Assembly (NCBI RefSeq): GCF_027595985.1
Contig: NC_073303.1
Span: forward strand, 326,677,679-326,741,678
Direction of reading: 5' to 3'
Source: Sorex araneus
Lineage: Eukaryota > Chordata > Mammalia > Eulipotyphla > Soricidae
Length of the DNA: 64,000 nt
Of the stretch, positions 2,683-58,359 are shown one piece after another (the first letter of the stretch is position 1; the number at the start of each line of letters is the position of its first letter). Below the pieces are notes generated by a model. That model ran no database searches. It was not told where the DNA came from and saw only the letters and a list, made by a program, of their open reading frames with translations. The translations under genes were made by a program, and so were the position numbers.

Positions 2683-3807
2683 TTTTTTAAATTTATTTAG
2701 TTTTTTAATTTTTAATTAGTGAATCACCGTGAGGGTACAGTTACAGATTTATATATTTTTGTGCTCATGTTTCCCCCATACAAAGTTCGAGAACCCATCC
2801 CTTCACCAGTGCCCATTCTCCATCACCAGTAAACCCAGAGTCCCTCCCACCCTCCCCAGTCCCGTCTCCCCCCACCCCAAACTGCCACTATGGCAGGGTA
2901 TTCCCTTTTGTTCTCTCTCTCTGATTAGGTGTTGTGGTTTGCAATAAAGGTGTTGAGCGGCCATTGTGTTCAGTCTCTAGTCTACATTCGGTATGCGTTT
3001 CACCCCTCTACTGCATGACCTCCAACCACATTTTACTTGGTGTTCCCTTCTCTGAGTTGCCCAGAATGAGAGAGACCAGCCTCTAAGCCATGGAGTCAAC
3101 CTCCTGGTACTTATTTCTACTATTCTTGGGTGTTAGACTCCTAGTCTATTTTTCTATATTCCACAGATGAGTGCAATCTTTCTATGTCTGTCTCTCTCTT
3201 TCTGACTCATTTCACTTAGCATGATACTTTCCATGCTGATCCACTTAGATGCAAACTTCATGACCTCATTTTTTCTAACAGCTGCATAGTATTCCATTGT
3301 ATAGATGTACCAAGTTTCTTCAACCAGTCATCTGTTCTAGGGCACTCGTGTTTTTTCCAGATTCTGGCTATTATAAACAGTGCTGCAATGAACATATAAG
3401 TGCAGATTAAGGGGATTCAGATTGGAAAGGAAGAAATCAAGCTCTCACTATTCGCAGACGATATGATACTATACCTAGAGAAGCCTAAATCCTCTACTAA
3501 GAAACTCTTAGAAACAATTGACCTGTACAGTAAAGTCGCAGGCTATAAAATCAATACCCAAAAATCCATGGCCTTCCTATATGCAAACAATGAGACAGAG
3601 GAAAGGGACATGAAGAAAGCAATCCCGTTCACAATTGTGCCCCAGAAAATCAAATACCTTGGAATCAGCTTAACTAAAGAAGTAAAGGACCTCTACAAAG
3701 AAAACTATAAAACACTACTCCATGAAATAAAAGAGGACATGAGGAAATGGAAACATAACCCCTGCTCATGGATATGGAGAATAAACATTGTCAAAATGGC
3801 AATACTC
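2683..3807 (-). mobile_element. Twin-primed (5'-inverted) L1 insertion
   Basis: The left part (about 2683-3405) is an L1 3' end on the minus strand: A tail read as T-rich sequence, 3' UTR and the last part of ORF2. The right part (about 3406-3807) is an earlier section of ORF2 on the plus strand. Both lie inside one pair of 11-bp direct repeats, 'acctaatatga', at 2672-2682 and 3808-3818. The two opposed segments therefore arrived in one event, the hallmark of twin priming during L1 integration. The ORF2 stretch between the two segments is missing. Confidence 0.9.
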
Positions 3808-3813
3808 ACCTAA
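3400..3813 (+). pseudogene. L1 ORF2 reverse-transcriptase fragment (inverted segment)
   Basis: An open stretch of 137 codons encodes part of the L1 ORF2 reverse transcriptase. The catalytic FADD motif (the YXDD-box equivalent) is at residues 18-21, preceded by 'KLSL' and followed by 'MILYLEKP'. The later motifs '[17 protein letters not shown]' and '[11 protein letters not shown]' are also typical of L1. The first codons and the final residue belong to flanking or junction sequence. It is a piece of ORF2 only, lacking the endonuclease and C-terminal domains, and it is the inverted arm of the surrounding twin-primed insertion, so it cannot act alone. Confidence 0.85.
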
Positions 3814-7072: not shown

Positions 7073-7085
7073 AGTTCTTAATTTA
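7073..7085. repeat. Target-site duplication, left, of composite C
   Basis: The 13-bp 'agttcttaattta' is repeated exactly at 7637-7649. Confidence 0.85.
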
Positions 7086-7636
7086 ATTTTAATTTTTAAT
7101 GTTTTAAAAAATTTCTCTCCACACGTTCGGACGAGCCTCACACATGAAGGAACTGACAGAGGACTCCAGGTGTTTGGGACACGGGGCCAAGATCTCCAAG
7201 ACTGCTCGGATTGGGACTGGGCCTCTTCCACCCAGATTCCCCATTTTCCAGTAGTTAGGCAGTCACACCCAGAAACTGCCCCCGCCCCTCCCCCACTCGC
7301 TGCCATGTAATCCCATCAACAGCCACCATCCAGAGACTATAAAACAAAGCTCCTGGAAGCTGATAGCCTAGTTCTCCCTCTCGGAGAACCTGGTAAGCTA
7401 CCAAGAGTTTCCTGCCCACATGGGAGAGCCTGGCAAGCTCCCTGTGGCGTCTTCATATACCAAATACAGTAACAATGATGGGTCTCATTCCCCTGACCCT
7501 GAAAAGCCTCTAATGCGGCATCATTGGGAAGGACAAGTAAAAAGAAGCTACTAAAATCTCAGGGCTAGGATGAATGGGGACATTACTTGGCCCGCACGAG
7601 CAAATCCTTGATCAATGGGATAACAGTGACAGTGAC
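7086..7636 (+). mobile_element. Composite C retroposon with SINE-B-type body and tail
   Basis: A 551-bp insertion bounded by a perfect 13-bp duplication, 'agttcttaattta' (7073-7085 and 7637-7649). From 5' to 3' it holds an AT-rich start, a C unit ('cacacgttcggacgagcctc', 'gagactataaaacaaagctc'), then a SINE-B-like body ('gagagcctggcaagctccc', 'acagtaacaatgatgggtct') containing an extra segment of about 100 bp absent from ordinary SINE-B. It ends in the tail 'gataacagtgacagtgacag' with no poly(A). It has no coding capacity. The C unit carries a TATAAAA motif at about 7340, which could be promoter-derived; that is inference. Confidence 0.85.
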
Positions 7637-7649
7637 AGTTCTTAATTTA
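7637..7649. repeat. Target-site duplication, right, of composite C
   Basis: Exact copy of 7073-7085, immediately after the ACAGTG tail. Confidence 0.85.
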
Positions 7650-7732
7650 CAGAAAAGTTAGTTGTTTACAATTAGATTAATTAGATAAACAGTTAATGAT
7701 TCACTTCAATTATTGATAGTTAATCTTGCCAA

Positions 7733-7971
7733 TAGCACAGCGGGTAGGGTGTTTGCCTTGCACGTGGCAGACCTGGGTTCAGTTCCTCCACCCCTCTTGG
7801 AGAGCCTGGCAAGCTACCAAGAGTATCTCGCCCACACGGCAGAGCCTGGCAAGCTCCCCGTGGCGTATTTGATATGTCAAAAACAGTAACAACAAGTCTC
7901 ACAATGGAGACATTACTGGTGCCTGCTCGAGCAAATCAATGAGCAACGGGGGACAGTGACAGTGACAGTGA
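7733..7971 (+). mobile_element. SINE-B copy, full length
   Basis: tRNA-like head ('aatagcacagcgggtagggt', 'cctgggttcagttcc'), SINE-B body ('acggcagagcctggcaagct', 'aaaacagtaacaacaagtct') and a tail of three GACAGT units. A perfect 12-bp duplication, 'taatcttgccaa', flanks it (7721-7732 and 7972-7983). There is no poly(A) between tail and right duplication, so the tandem tail is the true 3' end. Confidence 0.92.
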
Positions 7972-9364: not shown

Positions 9365-11039
9365 TTTTTTTAAATTTATTTATTTTTAATTAGAGAATCA
9401 CCGTGAGGGTACAGTTACAGATTTATACACTTCTGTGCTCACACTTCCCTCATACAAAGTTTGGAAACCCATCCCTTCACCAGTGCCCATTCTCCACCAC
9501 CCGTAAACCCAGTGTCCCTCCCACCCTCCCCAATCCCATCTCCCCCCCACCCCACCCTGCCACTGTGGCAAGGCATTCCCTTCTGCTTTCTCTCTCTAAT
9601 TAGCTGTTGTGGTTTGCAACAAAGGTGTTGAGTGGCCCCTGTGCTCAGTCTCTAGCCCTCATTCAGCCCGCAACTCCCTTCCCCCACATGGCCTTCGACT
9701 GCAATGTAGTTGGTGATCGCTTCTCTGAGTTGACCTTTCCCCGGAACGTGAGGCCAGCCTCGAAGCCATGGAGTCAACCTCCTGGTACTTATTTCTACAG
9801 TTCTTGGGTGTTAGTCTCCCACTCTGTTATTCTATATACCATAGATGAGTGCAATCTTTCTATGTCTGTCTCTCTCTTTCTGACTCATTTCACTCAGCAT
9901 GAAGCTTTTCATGCCCATCCACTTAACTACAAAATTCTTGACCTCCTTTTTTCTAACAGCTGCATAGTATTCCATTGTATAGATGTACCAAAGTTTCCTC
10001 AACCAGTCATCCATTCTGGGGCATTCGGGTTTTTTCCAGATTCTGGCTATTGTAAACAGTGCTGCGATGAACATACATGTGCAGATGTTGTTTCGATTGT
10101 ACTTTTTTGATTCTCTGGGATATATTCCCAGCAGTGGTATTGCTGGGTCAAATGGGAATTCAATATCAAATTTTTTGAGAGTCGTCCAAATTGTTTTCCA
10201 GAAGGGCTGAACCAGTCGGCATTCCCACCAGCAGTGAAGAAGGGTCCCTTTCTCCCCACATCCTCTCCAACAGCGGTTGCTTTTGTTCTTTTGGATGTGT
10301 GCTAGTCTCTGTGGTGTGAGGTGGTATCTCATGGTTGTTTTGATCTGCATCTCTCTGATGATTAGTGATGTAGAGCACTTTTTCATGTGCCTTTTGGCCA
10401 TTCGTATTTCTTCCTTGGTAAAGTTTCTGTTCATTTCTTTGCCCCATTCTTTGATGGGGTTGGATGTTTTCTTCTTGTAGAGCTCAACCAGTGCTTTATA
10501 TACCATTGATATCAACCCCTTATCTGATGGGTATTGTGTAAATATCCTTTCCCATTCTGTGGATAGTCTTTGTATTCTGGTCACTGTATCTCTTGCGGTG
10601 CAGAAGCTTTTTAGTTTAATGTAGTCCCATTTGTTGATCTCTGTTTTTACTAGATTGCTTAGTTCCGTGTCACCTTTGAAGATACCCTTATCTTCAATAT
10701 CGTGGAGGGTTTCGCCGACCTTGTCTTCAATGTACCTTATGGTTTGTGGTCTAATGTTGAGGTCTTTAATCCATTTTGATCTGACTTTTGTGCATGGTGT
10801 CAGGTCAAGGTCTAAACCCATTTTTTTGCATGTGGTTGTCCAGTTGTGCCAGCACCATTTGTTAAAGAGGCTTTCCTTGCTCCACTTCACTTCTCTTGCT
10901 CCCTTATCAAAGATTAGATGGTCATACATTTGGGGTTGTGTGTAGGGATATTCCACCCTGTTCCATTGGTCTACGGCTCTGCCTTTGTTCCAGTACCATG
11001 CTGTTTTAATTGTTACTGCTTTGTAGTAAAGTTTGAGGC
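9365..11039 (-). mobile_element. Young 5'-truncated L1
   Basis: A minus-strand L1 of about 1.67 kb: poly(A) tail at the left (read as T at 9361-9372), 3' UTR to about 9831, and the C-terminal third of ORF2 to 11039. A perfect duplication 'aaccaggcattttt' flanks it (9351-9364 and 11040-11053; its last T's overlap the tail). The antisense of the duplication starts AAAAA, consistent with L1 endonuclease cutting at TT/AAAA. The 5' end is truncated inside ORF2, as is usual for L1. Confidence 0.95.
9832..11039 (-). CDS. L1 ORF2 C-terminal part, uninterrupted (partial)
   Basis: About 402 codons without a stop encode the end of the L1 ORF2 protein (reverse transcriptase of the LINE). The open frame runs on to an ATG at 11133, but the first 30 or so residues come from flanking DNA. 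The carboxy-terminal zinc knuckle is intact: C288, C292, H300 and C305 (CX3CX7HX4C, about 10272-10219). Other L1 landmarks are 'LKLYYKAV' at the truncation point, '[14 protein letters not shown]' and '[13 protein letters not shown]' near the end. The endonuclease and RT catalytic domains are absent, so it is not active, but lack of any frame damage argues for recent insertion. Confidence 0.85.
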
Positions 11040-13980: not shown

Positions 13981-14094
13981 TAGAAGGGGGTAGAAGATGA
14001 AGAGTCAGCTAAACACTCCAGGCCCATCATACCCTCAAAGCCCCACTCCATTGACCTGAGACTTGACTGGACAATAAATATGTATATTCTGTTG

Positions 14095-14690
14095 AGGGCA
14101 GAGTCTCTTACCCCTGCGCCTGGCTGTCTGAATTGGGGCCTCTCGAAGGGGGCAGGTTGAGTTTCCCTCGCTGCCCTGAGCAGAGCCCCGGCAGCTGAAA
14201 ACCTCCGGAACTCAGTCACAGCCATGCCACTCTCCACACCTTTGGACGAGCCTCCTGCATGAAGGAACTGGCAGAGGAACCCAGGTGTGTGGGACCTGGG
14301 ACTGAGATCTCCAAGCCTGCTTGGATCAGGACTGGGCCTCTTCCACCCAGAGCCCCCATCTTCCAGTAGCTTGGCAGTCACATCCACAAACTGCCCCCAG
14401 TGTGTGTAATACCATCGATGGCCAAGATCCAGAGACTATAAAACAGTGCTCCCAGAAGAGAGCAATGCTGAGTCTCCTGCCCCTGTGCCTGGCTGTCTTT
14501 ACCGGGGCCCCTCAGAGCGGGGCAGCTTGATTTTCCCTCCCTGCCCCAAGCAGAGCCCTGGCAACCAAAGACCTCCGGAACCCAGCCACAGCCATGCTCA
14601 AGGCCCCTCTCCACCCGTTCTGATGCCCGCTCAAGCAAATCGATGATCAATAGGATGACAGTGATATAATGATACAGTGATTTTATTGAG
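14095..14690 (+). mobile_element. Composite C, two tandem units with SINE-B-type tail
   Basis: Two C units in direct tandem: matching words 'ctgtctgaattggggcctct' near 14124 and 'ctgtctttaccggggcccct' near 14492 give an offset of about 369 bp. Each carries 'gagcagagccc'/'agcagagccc', 'acctccggaa' and 'cacagccatgc'. The second unit breaks off after 'ctctccacccgttctgatg' and jumps straight to the tail 'cccgctcaagcaaatcgatg' plus 'tgatataatgatacagtgat'. The SINE-B body is missing here, unlike at 7.1 and 25.6 kb. Left boundary uncertain. Confidence 0.78.
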
Positions 14691-19555: not shown

Positions 19556-19567
19556 AAGTAGCCCTGT
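19556..19567. repeat. Target-site duplication, left
   Basis: 'aagtagccctgt', repeated exactly at 20243-20254. Confidence 0.8.
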
Positions 19568-20242
19568 TTCAGTTGGCCTGGGGCCCACCCAAGCAGAGCC
19601 CCCAGAAGTCATTTGCTTTCATACTCCAAAATCAAGTTTCCATACCCCTGGCCTAACTCTACCATCTCAGGATGGACCTCATCAAGATATAATCTGTTGA
19701 AAATTCTGGTATGCGGGTTTTGTGACTGAAATGCCCAGGTTTTCTCAGGGTTGGCATGGGCTACCTCCCTCCATATTCCTATACTTCTGGAAGCTTTGGC
19801 AGTCACATCTACACCTCAAAGCTGCCACCCAATTGAAAAGCTACTCCAGCCTTACCATCCTGATAAAAATACTGAATGCCCTGAACAAACACCATGACCT
19901 CTTAGCGCCTATATTGTAAACAATAATGCATAAAAGGAAAAGGAGAGAGAGAACAAGAAGGAATATGCCTCCCATAGAGGGAGGCTGGGGGTAGGGGGTG
20001 GGGGTTTGGGAGATGGTGGTGGGGAAATAGGAACATTGGTGGTGGGAGATGTGCACTGGTGGAGGGATGGGTGCTGGATCATTGTATGATTGAAACCCAA
20101 TCATGAACAGCTTTGTAATGGTCTATCTCACAGATATCCAATTAAAAAAATTTTTTAAACAGTAATGTGGAATTCATGTCCAGCTCAATGAGCTTAATCA
20201 ATGGCTGAATAAATAACAGTACTCCTACATTTAAAAAAAATT
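19568..20242 (+). mobile_element. Divergent composite C with L1-like 3' end and extra 3' segment
   Basis: A 675-bp insertion between perfect 12-bp repeats 'aagtagccctgt' (19556-19567, 20243-20254). The 5' half (to about 19915) is related to the C unit: 'tgtgactgaaatgcccaggt', 'ggaagctttggcagtcac' and 'acctcaaagctgcc' align in order with C words. The middle (about 19920-20150) is an L1-like 3' end including 'ggtgggagatgtgcactggt'. After an A/T-rich stretch comes a 72-bp segment (20161-20232) that also ends the elements at 27.2 and 58.7 kb, then a second A run. The whole unit therefore transposed as one piece. Confidence 0.8.
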
Positions 20243-20254
20243 AAGTAGCCCTGT
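20243..20254. repeat. Target-site duplication, right
   Basis: Exact copy of 19556-19567, just after the second A run. Confidence 0.8.
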
Positions 20255-25564: not shown

Positions 25565-26125
25565 CTCAGCTATATAAGCTCATTTATCGACCTTATTTCA
25601 GACAGAGTCTCTTGCCTGGCTGTCTTCCCCAGGGCCCCTCGGAGGGGATAGGCTCCAGCTGCCGTCCCCATCCTGAGCAGAGCTCCGGGTGGCCGAAGAC
25701 CACCGGAACCGGAACCTAGCCACAGCCATGCTCAAGGCCTCTTTCCACACGTTCAGACAAACCTCACGCATGAAGGTACCGGCAGAGGAACCCAGGTGTG
25801 TGTAATCCCATCAATGGCCAACATCCAGAGACTTAAAAGCAAGCTCCCAGAAGCGATATCTTATAACCTACGTCTCTCTCTGGGAGAAATTAGCAAGCTA
25901 CTGAGAGTTTCCTGCCCACATGGGACAGCCTAGCAAGCTTCCCATGGTGTACTCATCATATGGTAAAGCCAGTAACAAGCTGGATCTCATTCCCCTGACC
26001 CTGAAAGAGCCTCCAATGTGGCATCGTTGGGAAGGCCAAGTGGAGAGAGGGTTCTAAAATCTCAGGGATAGGACGAATAGAGAGGTTACTGAGCCCACTG
26101 GAGAAATCGATGATCAATGGAATTT
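25565..26125 (+). mobile_element. Composite C with SINE-B-like body
   Basis: C unit words ('ctgtcttccccagggcccct', 'cagccatgctcaaggcct', 'acacgttcagacaaacctca') lead into the same long body as at 7.1 kb ('gagagtttcctgcccacatg', 'cattcccctgaccctgaaag', 'gcatcgttgggaaggcc') and the 3' words 'aaatcgatgatcaatgg'. The tandem ACAGTG tail is missing or replaced by 'aatttcgcgattcgtgattc'. The stretch 25330-25565 upstream may be a diverged extension ('ccatatccacaaaccacctc'). Confidence 0.78.
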
Positions 26126-26204
26126 CGCGATTCGTGATTCATGATTTCAGATACCCAAAATCTCAAAAGAGAGTAAAAGATGCAGTTAGGACCTGTGGTG
26201 CAGA

Positions 26205-27260
26205 GGTAAGCGGAAACCCATGACTGAGATATCCAAGCCTGCTTGGATCAAGACTGAGCCTCCTCCCCACAGGTTTCCTGTAGTTTGGCAGTCACACCCA
26301 CAAACTGCCCCCAGTACCATTTAATCTCAGCAACAGCCAAAACCCAGAGATTATAAACTAATGCTCCAGGAATAGAGTGCCACAAAATGTCTTGACCCCG
26401 TGCTAAGCTGTCTTCACCTGGGGACCTCAGAGCAGGGCTGGTTGAGTTTCCCTCCCCACCCCAAACAGAACCCAGGCAGCTGAAAACCTCCAGAACCCAA
26501 CCACCGCCATGTCAAGGCCATTCTCCACATACTCAAACGAGCCTCACCCAAGACAGAATAAACCTCACCCAAGAGTGGACGGGCAGGAAAACACAGGTAT
26601 GCTGGAACCCATGACTGAGATCTCCAAGCCTGTGACTGAGATCTCCAAGCCCACTTGGATCAGGGCTGGGCCTCCTTCCCCTAGGTCCCCAGTTTTCCAA
26701 TAGCTTAGCAGTCACACCCACAAACTGGCCCTGGTATCATGTAATCTCATCAACGGCCAAGACCCAGAGATTACAAACTAAAGCTCCTGGAAGAGAACAG
26801 CACAGAATTTCCTGGACACTATATTCTATCCATAACAAGCAATACAAAGCAAATTGTCTGGCATTGTCTTTTTGGCAAGTTTGAGTGGTGGTGGGACTGG
26901 TATTGAAATATCGAATGTAACCAAAGTAGAGAGAGAGTATGGGGGAAATTGTCTTCCATACAGGCAGGGGAAGGGTTGGAACGGGGTGGGGTAGAATACT
27001 GGGGATTTTGGTGGTAGAAAATGTGCACTGATGAAGGGATGGGTGCTTGATGATTGTATGACTGAAGCTCAAACATGAAAGCTTTGCAACTGTATCAACG
27101 GTAAATTAATAAAAATGGGGAAAAGAATAATAATAAAATAATAAAATTAAATTGACATTCTTAATTAAAAAAAAGTAATGTGGAGTTCATGCCCAATTCA
27201 ATCAGCTTAATCAGTGGTTAATTATTTACTGCTGAATAAATAGCAGTACTCCTACATTAT
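26205..27260 (+). mobile_element. Composite C: two tandem units, L1-like 3' end, extra 3' segment
   Basis: Two C units: 'aacccatgactgagatatcc' (26214) and 'aacccatgactgagatctcc' (26606) give an offset of 392 bp. In the second unit 'tgactgagatctccaagc' is itself doubled. From about 26815 the element continues as an L1-like 3' end ('agagagagtatgggggaaat', 'gaaaatgtgcactgatgaag', 'caaacatgaaagctttgcaa'), then an A-rich stretch, then the segment at 27174-27259 shared with 20161-20232 and 58719-58788. Frames inside are short and non-coding. Confidence 0.8.
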
Positions 27261-27795: not shown

Positions 27796-27985
27796 TTTTT
27801 CTTTCTTTTTTTTTTTTTTTTGCTTTTTGGGTCACACCTGGCTCTGCCCAGGGGTTACTCCTGGTTCTGCACTCAGGAACTATCCCTGGCGGTGCTCAGG
27901 GGACCATATGGGATGCTGGGAATCAAACCCGAGTCGGCCGTGTGCAAGGCAAACGCCCTACCCGCTATGCTATCGCTCAAGCCCC
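27796..27985 (-). mobile_element. Young SINE-A copy
   Basis: A well preserved antisense copy: T run (A tail) at 27811-27831, 'gctttttgggtcacacctgg', 'gggaccatatgggatgctgg', 'gtgcaaggcaaacgccctac' and head 'gctatcgctcaagccc'. A perfect 15-bp duplication, 'ttattgctgattttc', flanks it (27781-27795, 27986-28000). Read in sense the duplication begins GAAAA, consistent with L1 endonuclease. Confidence 0.95.
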
Positions 27986-33764: not shown

Positions 33765-33780
33765 GAGAGCAATTTTTATT
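33765..33780. repeat. Target-site duplication, left, of minus-strand composite C
   Basis: 16 bp, exact match to 34486-34501; its end merges with the T-rich tail. Confidence 0.88.
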
Positions 33781-34485
33781 TTTATTTATTTTTATTTTTG
33801 CAATTTTTAAATATTTTATTCTCATGAAGTAGTTCACAATAGTTCAGTGCAGATAATATTCAAACATCAATCCCACCACTGAGCACCTTCTTACCAGAAT
33901 AAGAGGGAAGTGTATGAAGGTTGTTGTATATTGTTACATTTCATTCTGGAGCCATTTAAGCCCTTATCTGGGCTTAAATAGGCTTAAAATTTAAATACAA
34001 GCAAGTGTGTTAAAACCAAACAAATGTGTGCTACTTATACATAATCTAGAGTATAAGAAGTCATGCAGCCACAGATGAGGCCACAAGCTCTAGGAAATTC
34101 TGCAGCACTCTCTTCCGGGAGCTTTGGTTTATAGTCTCTCAATCTTGGCCGTTGATGAGATTTGAGATTGTGTGCCAGGGGCAGTTTGTGTGTGTGATTC
34201 CCAGGCTACTGGAAAACTGGGGATCTAGGGGGAGGAGGCCCAGTCCCGATCCAAGTGGGCTTGGAGGTCTCAGTCATGGGGCCTGCATACTTGGATTCCT
34301 GCGCTGGTTCCTTCATGGGCGAGGCTCATCCGAGCAGGTGGAGGTTGGCCTTGAGCATGGCAACAGTTTGGTTCCTGAGGTTTTCAGCTGCCAGGGTTCT
34401 GCATGGGATGGAAAGAGAAACTCAACCTACCCCCCTCTGAGGTGTCCAGGGCAGACCGACTGGCACAGGGTCAGGAAATTCTGCC
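33781..34485 (-). mobile_element. Composite C with a distinct LINE-like 3' end
   Basis: A 705-bp insertion with a perfect 16-bp duplication, 'gagagcaatttttatt' (33765-33780, 34486-34501). In antisense the right part (about 34080-34485) is a C unit ('gaggtctcagtcatgg', 'ttcctgaggttttcagctgc', 'ttatagtctctcaatcttgg'). The left part (33781-34080) is an AT-rich 3' end with a repeated TTTTTATT tail, different from the L1 3' ends at 20.0 or 27.0 kb but sharing 'gtggtgggattg' with 56.9 kb. A short hairpin, 'taagccc'/'gggctta', lies at about 33958-33977. Confidence 0.85.
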
Positions 34486-34501
34486 GAGAGCAATTTTTAT
34501 T
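34486..34501. repeat. Target-site duplication, right, of minus-strand composite C
   Basis: Exact copy of 33765-33780. Confidence 0.88.
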
Positions 34502-34587: not shown

Positions 34588-34780
34588 TTTTTTTTTTATT
34601 TTTTATTTTTTTTTTGCTTTTTGGGTCACACCTGGCGATGCACAGGGGTTACTCCTGGCTCTGCACTCAGGAATTACCCCTGGCAGTGCTCAGGGGACCA
34701 TATGGGATGCTGGGATTCGAACCCGGGTTGGCCGCGTGCAAGGCAAACGCCCTACCCGCTGTGCTATCACTCCAGCCCCT
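34588..34780 (-). mobile_element. Young SINE-A copy
   Basis: Antisense copy close to the apparent consensus: T-rich tail at 34588-34614, 'gctttttgggtcacacctgg', 'gattcgaacccgggttggcc' and 'gctgtgctatcactccagcc'. A 9-bp duplication, 'caattttta', is seen at 34579-34587 and 34781-34789; in sense it begins TAAAAA, consistent with L1 endonuclease. Confidence 0.93.
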
Positions 34781-46002: not shown

Positions 46003-46016
46003 ATGGAAATAGTTTT
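46003..46016. repeat. Target-site duplication, left, of U1 pseudogene
   Basis: Exact match to 46164-46177. In sense (minus) orientation it starts AAAAC, consistent with L1 endonuclease cleavage. Confidence 0.9.
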
Positions 46017-46165
46017 GTAGCAGTCCCCCACTACCACAAATTTCGCAGTCTGAGTTTCCCACATTGGGGAAATCACAAGGTCAGCACATCTGGAGTGCAA
46101 TGGATAAGCCTCGCCCTGTGAAAACCACCTTCATTATTATGGTATCTCCCCTGCCAGGTAAGTAT
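46017..46165 (-). pseudogene. RNU1: U1 snRNA retropseudogene, 3'-truncated
   Basis: The antisense strand is U1 spliceosomal RNA from nucleotide 1 to about 148: the 5' end that pairs with splice donors (seen as 'ccaggtaagtat'), the stem-loop core 'gagtgcaatggataagcctc', and the Sm-site region (seen as 'ccacaaatt'). The last stem-loop (about 16 nt) is missing. There is no A tail. A perfect 14-bp duplication, 'atggaaatagtttt', flanks it (46003-46016, 46164-46177), overlapping the first two U1 bases. About a dozen differences from the mammalian U1 I remember, and no proximal sequence element beyond 46165. Not an active gene. Confidence 0.95.
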
Positions 46166-48995: not shown

Positions 48996-49004
48996 TCTTT
49001 TCTT

Positions 49005-49167
49005 CAGGGTAGTGTGTGAAGGCACTCCCACACTGCTAAAAATTCTGTAGTTGAGTTTCCCACGTTTAGGGAAATCACAGGGTCAGCACATCCAGAGTGC
49101 AATGGATAAGCCTTTCCCCAGGAAAACCACCTTCGTGATCATGGTATCTCTCCTGCCAGGTAAGTAA
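49005..49167 (-). pseudogene. RNU1: U1 snRNA retropseudogene, near full length with A-rich tail
   Basis: Antisense U1 RNA covering almost the whole molecule. The 5' end ('ccaggtaagta') and 'gagtgcaatggataagcc' are well preserved; the 3' third is badly diverged, and the Sm-site region reads differently from the functional motif. Next to its 3' end the plus strand is T-rich (48989-49004), meaning a 3' A-rich tail in sense. That distinguishes it from the tail-less copy at 46.0 kb. No clear target duplication ('tcttttctt' at 48996-49004 and 49176-49184 is weak) and no U1 promoter element upstream. Confidence 0.9.
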
Positions 49168-55219: not shown

Positions 55220-56140
55220 AAGATTGTAAGCCAGTGAGGCCACTATTCGAGAAATGATATTATCGATTAAAAAAGATAGAAACCTAATAATCAGGCACAA
55301 GCATTCTTTTTCCTCACTTATATATTGTTCATTCTTCATTTCCAGCACTAGAAATTTAAATCTTAAGAAATTGGAGAGTCTGATGCCATTCTCTAGAATT
55401 TGGCTTTGAGCTTAGACTCTGTCATCATTGCGGTGCACAAAGGATGCTGCAGGATGCAATGAGGCCTGCACATGTTGACTGTTCTATTGCTGCGCCACAC
55501 CTCTATGTGCCCCTTTTAACAGAAAGTTGTACATTTCAAAGTGCAGCTTAAAGAGTAGCAGCAAGGACAGAATTCTTTGATGGTTCATTTTGGGGACTGA
55601 GTTCACTGCCTGTAATTCAGTTTCTTTTTCAGTGCTTGCTTAAAATTTAGTTACAGGAGTCACCAGAATATAAAGCAAAGTAAATAGCATTAATTTATCT
55701 TAAAAATATGAGAGGGTGGAGGAGAAACTAAAGCAATACAGCTTATTACCTAAAAATGCTTTTATAATCAAAACCAGAATGGTTATAGTTCCAAGTGGAA
55801 TGAAAAATTTCTGCTTTGTATAACAGGTTGCAAGGCTGCAACGATTTTAAAAAAGCATTTTTTAGGGGCTTGCAAACTTCAACATCTTCTGCTTAGTATG
55901 TAAAAGTCTTGTGTTTAGTATGTAAAAGTATTTATGAGACGCTCATTTGAAATCTATATTGCTCTTTACACATAGTTATACTTACCTGTTTAGTGGGCTC
56001 CAGGTTGAATTAATTTTTTTAAAAATTAGTATATTTTAATGACAAACATGCTATAATTCTTAGTGAATATTCAAACTTCCTTAAATTAAAGAAAAAAAGA
56101 AAAGAAAGAAAGGAACTCTTAGATTCATGTAACTAAAATA
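55220..56140. other. AT-rich intergenic sequence
   Basis: The phrase 'tagtatgtaaaagt' occurs twice at about 55895-55930. No gene recognised. Confidence 0.5.
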
Positions 56141-56144
56141 AACC

Positions 56145-57020
56145 AGGCTATGTGGGACTCTGTGACTGAAACTTCTAGTTCAAGGGAACCAGGAACAGGC
56201 GTCCTTCACTGTCTCCCCGTGTTCCCAGAAACTTGGCAGTCACGCCCATAAACCACCTGTGGCTGGCACCAGATAATTTTGTCATCAGCCACGACCCAGA
56301 GACTCATTGTCCATCTCTCCCGGAAGAGACCATAAGACAACACACACCACAGCTATGCCGCAGGACCTGGGCTCCAGGCTGTTTCTTTCAGGGTGCCCCG
56401 GAAGGGGTGGGTGAGACCCCTCCCCGCCCCAAGGGACTCAGCCCCAGCAGCTGAAAACCTCCATAATTCAACCACCCCATGCTCATGGTTGTTCTCCACA
56501 CACTCAGACCGAGCCTCACCCATGATTGAACGGATTTCTGGATGCAAGGCGCCATTTGTGGCAGCGCGACATCCCATACCTCACACCACTCATACTCCAA
56601 GAGTAGGATATCACATTTGACGGGGGTTAAAGTAGGAGGCAACCAAACTTAGAAGGATATGTATATATATATGTACTCACACATTCATGCACACACACAC
56701 ACACACATATGCACATAAGGCTCAAACTTTAACAACATGTTAGTGATCTCTCATAGAAGGGCTTAATGGCCCCTTCATGAAATACAATAATCTTCACACA
56801 CTTTCCTTTAAGAAAACTTTTTTGGAGCATTTTCAAAGTTTTTCATAACAAACAATGCAAAATAAATTACTTTGGTTCTGCTTTGGGGTAGGAGTGGGGG
56901 TTCGGGATTGAAACATCTGAAATATGGTGGTGAGAAGGTGTAATAGTGGTGGGATTGGTGTTCAAACATTAAATGTAATAAAATATTGTTAAATACTTTA
57001 TAAAATAAAGTAAAATTTTA
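56145..57020 (+). mobile_element. Composite C with LINE-like 3' end
   Basis: One C unit ('gggactctgtgactgaaact', 'acttggcagtcacgcccata', 'cagcagctgaaaacctccat', 'cacactcagaccgagcctca'), a TA/CA microsatellite at about 56655-56710, then an AT-rich 3' end ('aatagtggtgggattggtgt') with an AAAATA tail. The 3' end resembles that of the minus-strand copy at 33.8 kb. Confidence 0.75.
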
Positions 57021-57850: not shown

Positions 57851-58359
57851 GTTAACCTATTCAAAAATGTGTGTCCTCAGCACTGAGTACTGGAAGACAC
57901 CACAGTGCCGGCAATCTCTCTGGGCCCCATACCAGGTCGATTTCACCAGGCACCCCAGATGGAGCAGGTGCAGTCTCCCCACTCTCCAGATGGAATCCTG
58001 GTGACCAAGAGCTTCCACAAGCAAGGCCCAGGTATGCGGGTTCCAGGACTAAATCTCCAGGCCACATGGCCACAGAAAACCTGGACTGCCTAACCCCAGC
58101 AGACTGACTGTAATGCCCACAACTTTCCTCCAGGTGCCATATTAGCACACCAGCAGCCCTGGCCCAGAGACTCCCCAGCTGAATCCCAAAATGGATTAGT
58201 GCTATACAGAGATGTCTCTGGAACTCAACCATTTGCAATCTAAAAATTTACATTTATAATCACGGCCGTGTGAGCTCTCATGATATTCAAAATGAGCAAT
58301 GAAAAATAAATTATCTAGCATCTGCCCCTGGCAGGTAGGCTTGAATGGTGGTGGGAAAT

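Follow-up and report, generated by a model that had tools for sequence, protein, structure and literature searches.

What is the element at 7086-7636 of the window, the 64,000-nucleotide stretch of Sorex araneus DNA analysed here: one retroposon assembled from unlike parts, or a row of repeats that happen to adjoin? The initial annotation had read it as a composite retroposon carrying a GC-rich unit, C, and had proposed comparing C with the source genome. We searched the genome (2.41 Gb, 65 contigs), and the composite reading was borne out. The head-body-tail order of 7086-7636, with the same junctions, was kept by all 39 of the other copies scored, with identities of 82-85% (best 40 of 11,077 first-look candidates). 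For the family of this element, with its C head, linker, RTE-derived body and tail, we use the label CB. When the C unit alone (14095-14460) was the query, the best 40 of 6,424 candidates were scored, and an uninterrupted C-linker-body-tail was present in 22 of the 29 non-window loci fetched from that search, 14 of these 22 canonical CB loci having themselves built the CB model. One of the remaining loci (L023) was a CB locus broken up by another repeat, and six (L011, L022, L034, L035, L037 and L038) deviated from the CB form; these seven were excluded from the C HMM, which was made from 22 C copies. Throughout, copy numbers should be read as lower bounds or as first-look counts, and identity ranges as those of the best-scoring copies only. 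The element at 7086-7636 belongs to a dispersed family whose members move as single units.

The window copy is bounded by an exact 12-mer, gttcttaattta, at 7074-7085 and again at 7638-7649, and the forward strand of the window holds only these two copies of it. Inside the left duplication lies an AT-rich filler of 28 nt (7086-7113, + strand), which is neither flank duplication nor C. Because this filler is unmatched by the C model, the element proper begins at about 7114. From there the parts follow one another on the + strand. The C unit (7114-7359, right edge from BLAST) is 5'-truncated and has a TATAAA close to its 3' end; positions 149-443 of the C HMM aligned to 7114-7407 with an E value of 3.7e-85. 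A linker (7360-7375, BLAST boundaries) leads to an RTE 5' part, a stretch located at the RTE ORF's 5' border (7376-7569, right edge approximate; a relative of B 27-217) and then to an RTE 3' part made up of the final ORF codons and the ACAGTG tail (7570-7637, a relative of B 222-285). A second copy of this type, with C-type sequence at 25597-25907, lies at 25597-26138 (+), where the CB HMM matches with positions 5-211 and 325-669 and C model positions of about 212-324 are lost internally.

Perfect target duplications were found at three elements of the window, of 12 bp at 7074/7638, 12 bp at 19556/20243 and 16 bp at 33765/34486, in agreement with the initial count of three chimeras within duplications of 12-16 bp. 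Across the genome, a flank repeat score of 10 or more was reached by 8 of 30 CB loci (window copy included), as compared with 1 of 236 mispaired flank pairs, and a score of 9 or more by 13 of 30 as compared with 4 of 236; the other 17 loci had none at that score. One of the eight (L029) is a simple AT repeat, and in one of the thirteen (L025) the duplication lies 36 nt past the expected 3' end. The excess over the mispaired controls supports the earlier proposal that the composite moved as one unit. With respect to the 3' end, a run of eight A residues in the last 45 nt was seen in 0 of 22 CB copies, and two or more agtg motifs in the same interval in 15 of 22.

Then, what are the body and the tail? 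A search with the domain Exo_endo_phos_2 (PF14529) returned two sorts of LINE copy, L1 and RTE, which were separated by eye; the domain was above the cut-off in the RTE copies, and the L1 copies match it too. The clade name RTE is one that we take from sequence features together with the domain match. The RTE copy L051 holds a stop-free open frame of 1049 aa. Positions 27-217 of B align to the 5' border of the RTE ORF, directly after the 5'UTR, in L051 (27-196), L054, L055 and L059, and all or nearly all of positions 222-285 align to the 3' ends of L051, L052, L055, L056 and L059, a match that takes in the last codons of the ORF. In the RTE copies these two stretches are some 2.8-2.9 kb apart, and the interval is absent from CB; the RTE contributions to CB amount to about 190 nt from the ORF 5' border and the last 60 nt or so. 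Since B matches RTE at both of these places, what had been called a SINE-B body is an RTE that lacks its middle, and the former label gives way to two stretches of an RTE LINE, which an ACAGTG-tailed SINE uses as well. In two RTE copies whose ORF is oriented forward (L040 and L056), the RTE-type 5' sequence is inverted relative to the ORF, resembling the 5' inversions made by L1 twin priming.

That SINE is represented in the window by a separate insertion related to CB at 7730-7970 (+). It is of the tRNA type and consists of a head (1-55), an RTE 5' part (56-166) and an RTE 3' part (174-241), with BLAST matches to RTE copies at both ends. Relative to CB, its RTE 5' piece is shorter and its 3' piece begins at a nearly identical point. 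The ACAGTG-tailed SINE and CB thus share a common origin in that each is built from two parts of one RTE. The head of the SINE resembles part of an ARAGORN tRNA-Ala call at 34702-34774 (-), which overlaps a match, with one mismatch, to a shrew SINE primer (34699-34718); because of this overlap, the call probably represents an A-tailed shrew SINE head. The same 20-base primer, taken from the accessible text of PMC8608897, has an exact match at 27905-27924, where 0.00 chance matches would be expected. As far as the accessible text of PMC8608897 and PMC8466645 goes, the published A-tailed shrew SINE "Sor" appears to be distinct from the ACAGTG SINE.

The C unit is about 369 nt long and stands in tandem in some copies (14.1-14.6 kb, L007, L028, L035 and others). 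Its kinship was approached from both sides. The C HMM matches four RTE 5'UTRs (L051, L054, L055 and L057; E 6e-9 to 4e-5) in sequence that lies some 240-420 nt upstream from where the RTE body matches; for three of these 5'UTRs the matched stretch is only about 100 nt, from the central part of C. In reverse, an HMM of these four 5'UTRs matches 35 of 38 C-bearing loci among the 40 matches listed (E 6e-12 to 1.3e-4), with spans of 200-250 nt in nine C-bearing loci; the best E value in shuffled targets was 0.15. Twelve pairwise alignments of C with RTE 5'UTRs gave z values against shuffles from 2.1 to 10.8, weak in places, and with values of only this size the kinship is a distant one. C is therefore not foreign to the RTE LINE, whose 5'UTR holds a diverged C-like monomer; C is a distant relative of this RTE 5'UTR monomer, which is partly collinear with it.

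The RTE 5'UTR is a widespread sequence in its own right. Used as a genome query, it found 39 other scored copies (4,173 candidates), 34 of which begin at query positions 8-16 and hence at the same border. RTE-type 5' sequence was present in nine RTE loci, four of which had built that model; in L058 and L059 only the portion after the C-like monomer was matched, and the other seven include the C-like part. Among these nine, no RTE copy was found in which a CB-type C replaces its own 5'UTR. A joined query of RTE and a CB-type head returned both parts at 0 of the 40 listed places, the list being filled by RTE ORF copies. Three L1s with long ORFs (L060, L061 and L062) gave no match to the C HMM beyond an E value of about 0.2, and no Rfam family was found in the five loci checked.

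The anatomy of C is suggestive of a promoter. A TATAAA stands at one fixed position close to the end of C in 20 of the 22 CB copies, as against 70 of 2200 random flank 55-mers, and elsewhere within C it was found in none of the 22. In tandem units it lies 31 nt ahead of the motif cagagtctc, the start of the next unit. By hand count, among 12 displayed copies that have a candidate duplication, two of them scoring below 9, 6 start within about 4 nt of this unit start, and the distance from TATA to start is about 30-31 nt for C, for CA (the A-tailed family of the 33.8-kb element described below) and for RTE. A tRNA gene was found in 0 of 22 CB copies and a B-box-like motif in only 1 of 22; CB does not have the Pol III promoter (a tRNA, 7SL or 5S head) that defines a SINE. 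Given a TATAAA about 31 nt before the next unit start, where roughly half of the examined copies begin, C is probably a Pol II promoter cassette. A Pol II start inside tandem C units is probably the simplest reading of this arrangement.

C-type sequence also heads elements with other tails. Sites in the window were located by BLAST and HMM, and all of those listed in the initial annotation were recovered, the matches being weak at 19.6 kb (E 3e-10) and 57.9 kb (E 1e-5). At 14.1 kb, a complete C unit (14094-14462, +; C HMM 6-383, E 8e-122) is followed in tandem, with a period of about 369, by a partial second unit (14464 to about 14625, +; C HMM 7-168; 81.7% identical to the first), to which an RTE 3' tail is joined straight (14618-14688, +; CB HMM 614-684). 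This form, a "tail alone", had been counted as a third kind of 3' partner. Its junction, at about 155-162 of a 227-nt query, was crossed by none of the 39 other copies scored (5,296 candidates), the matches ending at or before position 174. Being private among the scored copies, the junction looks like a local deletion rather than a third partner kind.

At 19.6 kb, the duplication aagtagccctgt (19556-19567, right copy 20243-20254) encloses a composite at 19572-20242 (+) with a C-like head (19587-19826; C HMM E 3e-10) and an L1 3'UTR tail (19888-20159; L1 3'UTR HMM E 5e-26). Head and tail were spanned together by each of the 39 other copies scored (10,667 candidates; 83-87% identity), and 17 extra matches were a second head some 370-395 nt upstream. 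At one place in the genome (G000 C12:318768852-318780257), three such composites with equal head spacing follow each other about 5.2 kb apart, which suggests tandem duplication. Tandem heads of the A-tailed type occupy 26202-26816 (+; CA HMM 195-391 and 6-394), with C-type sequence at 26202-26376 and 26383-26799, and an L1 3'UTR match (26920-27115; HMM E 5e-18) begins 104 nt past them.

The CA family, a C head with an A-rich tail, is typified by the element at 33802-34486 (-), the head of which is closer to the CB one and whose duplication gagagcaatttttatt lies at 33765-33780 with the other copy at 34486-34501. It is matched by CA HMM 2-669 (E 6e-225, with a model that includes the copy) and by the C HMM (E 4.5e-89, with a model that does not), and its C-type sequence runs from 34486 to 34047 (-). 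The part after C was found at 39 other scored places (3,364 candidates), and a C head lay upstream in all four fetched relatives, L064-L067, truncated in L066 (L064 by HMM, the rest by eye). A longer and more diverged CA relative at 56138-57012 (+) is matched by the C HMM at 56141-56328 (E 1e-20) and 56371-56533 (E 4e-14) and by pieces of the CA HMM; of 39 other scored copies (11,818 candidates), 37 cover it from the head through to the tail. A weak C-like head at 57917-58172 (+) gave C HMM E 1.3e-5 (58027-58172) and CA HMM E 0.009 and 1.8e-5.

The 33.8- and 56.1-kb elements have an A-rich tail in common, and the CB relatives at 19.6, 33.8 and 56.1 kb all terminate in A-rich sequence; the tails of the A-tailed families showed no RTE parts. 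L1- or LINE-like 3' ends had been proposed for these elements. This stands for the 19.6-kb composite and is not borne out for the 33.8- and 56.1-kb ones: their similarity to L1 3'UTR-type sequence did not reach significance (best E value about 0.05), though for the 33.8-kb family the same place of the model was aligned in several L1-type sequences. The combinations of head and tail form subfamilies of their own, for the 7.1-, 19.6- and 56.1-kb types recur in 39/39, 39/39 and 37/39 other scored copies. The opposite prospect, a C-tail junction unique to a single locus in every case, applies to the 14.6-kb junction only, among the scored copies. Another doubt raised at the outset, that C just forms the 5' portion of a single full-length repeat, is right in part, namely for the RTE branch; it does not extend to the A-tailed families because their tails show no RTE part.

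The window contains further retroposon and small RNA sequence. L1 pieces in opposite orientation meet near 3405 within 2701-3813, an apparent 5' inversion. An L1 3' part at 9369-11038 (-) is 98.6% identical to the L1 at L062, both ORFs of which are long and open, and at this identity it is probably a recent insertion. Two full-length U1 snRNA matches, at 46003-46165 (-) and 49004-49167 (-), are 3 kb apart; since they are alike over just about 150 nt (83%), they are likely two retropseudogenes or diverged genes.

How are the heads related among themselves? We built a tree of 24 heads, with 11 of the 22 canonical CB copies, 5 CA, 4 RTE and 4 other window heads. The CB heads, together with the 14.1-kb unit, split from CA and all others with a support of 1.000, consistent with the earlier suggestion that related heads with different tails represent separate families. 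Median head identity was 86.5% within CB, 80% within CA, 76% between CB and CA and 54% between CB and RTE. Since the CB heads are nearer to CA than to RTE, CB need not derive from a C-carrying RTE. On these identities, the likeness of CB to CA favours a separate acquisition of the head over simple deletion, with the qualification that the RTE sample is small and that extinct RTE subfamilies could explain the pattern.

With regard to age, the best-scoring copies had identities to the query of 88-92% for the RTE 5'UTR, of 82-88% for both CB and C, of 83-87% in the 19.6-kb family, of 74-82% in most CA rows (86% in two short rows) and of 73-82% in the 56.1-kb family; the four RTE 5'UTRs are 71-89% alike among themselves. 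The median divergence to the majority was 0.096 for CB (22 copies), 0.080 for CA (5) and 0.049 for RTE (5), the CA and RTE values being biased low by the few copies. The CA value speaks against CA being older.

The reading that we prefer, with a probability of roughly three in four, is that CB is a non-autonomous retroposon in which a promoter-like C precedes two RTE parts, the rest of the ORF being deleted, and that C is shared among retroposon lineages. Transcription would begin about 31 nt downstream of the TATAAA in a preceding C unit, and the CB RNA would be reverse-transcribed in trans by an RTE protein recognising the RTE 3' end; composites with A-rich or L1 tails would use L1. C would then be a promoter cassette that forms, or once formed, the 5' end of RTE (in diverged form), of CB and of the A-rich- and L1-tailed composites, and it probably spread via template switching or recombination, the direction of head transfer being inferred. 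More tentatively, and with the odds somewhat against it, C may have arisen in resident L1-dependent shrew composites and been taken up at least twice by RTE-based elements, as the RTE 5'UTR and in CB.

The principal competitor is a plain internal deletion: CB would come from an older RTE subfamily with C as its native 5'UTR, no modules would have been exchanged, and the A-tailed elements would later have borrowed or lost parts. The relationship of C to the RTE 5'UTR fits such an origin, and so does the end of the CB linker, which by eye resembles the RTE sequence before the ORF. It is harder to reconcile with the position of the CB heads, apart from both RTE and CA heads and nearer to CA (76% vs 54%), with the count of CB-type heads in RTE loci with RTE-type 5' sequence (0 of 9), and with the A-tailed families, in whose tails no RTE part was seen. 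We regard it as a possible account, but the less probable one. That C is instead a shrew L1 5'UTR, so that every C element would be a deleted L1 beside chance neighbours, would explain why one C-like family, at 19.6 kb, ends in an L1 3'UTR; yet none of the three L1s with long ORFs matched C better than E of about 0.2, and CB holds RTE parts, which makes this origin improbable.

Two further explanations carry very little weight. GC-richness, a TATA box and a border like a transcription start would fit C being a piece of an endogenous retrovirus LTR attached to repeats. Retroviral target duplications, however, measure 4-6 bp, as against about 9-16 bp in the copies here; C stands in tandem units and is akin to the RTE 5'UTR, and no retroviral genes stood out beside C in the fetched C loci, read by eye. 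An LTR origin is accordingly very unlikely. The least likely explanation of all is that unrelated repeats were nested by insertion or came to lie together by chance, which the density of repeats in the window might invite but which is at odds with identical junctions in 39/39 other scored copies and 22/29 C loci and with target duplications lying outside the whole composite. For the 7.1-kb form, nested insertion is ruled out by these recurrent junctions and outer duplications.

Several known systems resemble parts of the preferred reading of CB as a shared promoter-like head on two RTE parts. Mouse L1 5'UTRs consist of tandem promoter monomers, and copies keep a promoter after truncation. C is similar in consisting of repeated promoter-like units at a 5' end; unlike the mouse monomers, it heads non-autonomous composites and an RTE-clade LINE, and the three L1s examined showed no relation to it. 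In ruminants, Bov-A is derived from the ends of the RTE BovB, and Bov-tA has a tRNA head. Bov-tA and Bov-A2 are described as RTE-dependent in the accessible text of PMC8620236. The parallel is that a non-autonomous element thought to be RTE-dependent stands beside a tRNA-headed SINE on the same LINE, and CB has these features of the Bov-A2 kind: a 3' end shared with RTE, an RTE 5' part kept with the ORF deleted, target duplications and no poly(A). CB differs from Bov-A2 in the long, partly tandem, promoter-like C before the RTE parts, and a C-type unit heads A-tailed families too.

The likeness to SVA-type composites that the initial annotation had drawn applies to the logic but does not extend to the parts. 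The hominoid VNTR composites SVA, LAVA, PVA and FVA, all four mobilised by L1 according to the available portion of PMC4432496, are like CB in that modules move together and one module is common to families with differing ends; unlike them, CB carries an RTE 3' end and lacks poly(A), the comparison being one of logic, judged by description. Chimeras made by L1, L2 and RTE machinery, including U6-LINE, are reported in the available portion of PMC4476161, and the template switching described there is a possible route for joining C to RTE; the U6-LINE chimeras in that text are single chimeric copies, whereas CB is a propagated family. CB thus joins a Bov-A2-like RTE deletion with SVA-like modularity, each principle having been known before. 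No description of a CB-type composite was met in the literature searched, which did not take in Repbase, Dfam and most subscription journals, so that a named entry may exist.

The abundant RTE-clade LINE of this genome is probably RTE1_Sar, with which the PF14529 endonuclease domain and the long ORF agree. RTE1_Sar is reported, in the accessible text of PMC6542046, as found among mammals only in Sorex araneus and as shared with strongylid nematodes; the word SINE does not occur in the main text as available. If C did arise in resident composites, a horizontally acquired LINE, the RTE here probably being the one reported as a nematode-shrew transfer, would have obtained its promoter from retroposons already resident. 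Should the head be a shared promoter, a single short sequence would control the 5' ends of both RTE- and L1-dependent elements in one mammal, and it would become testable how a LINE gains a promoter in a new host and whether retroposons swap 5' heads besides 3' tails.
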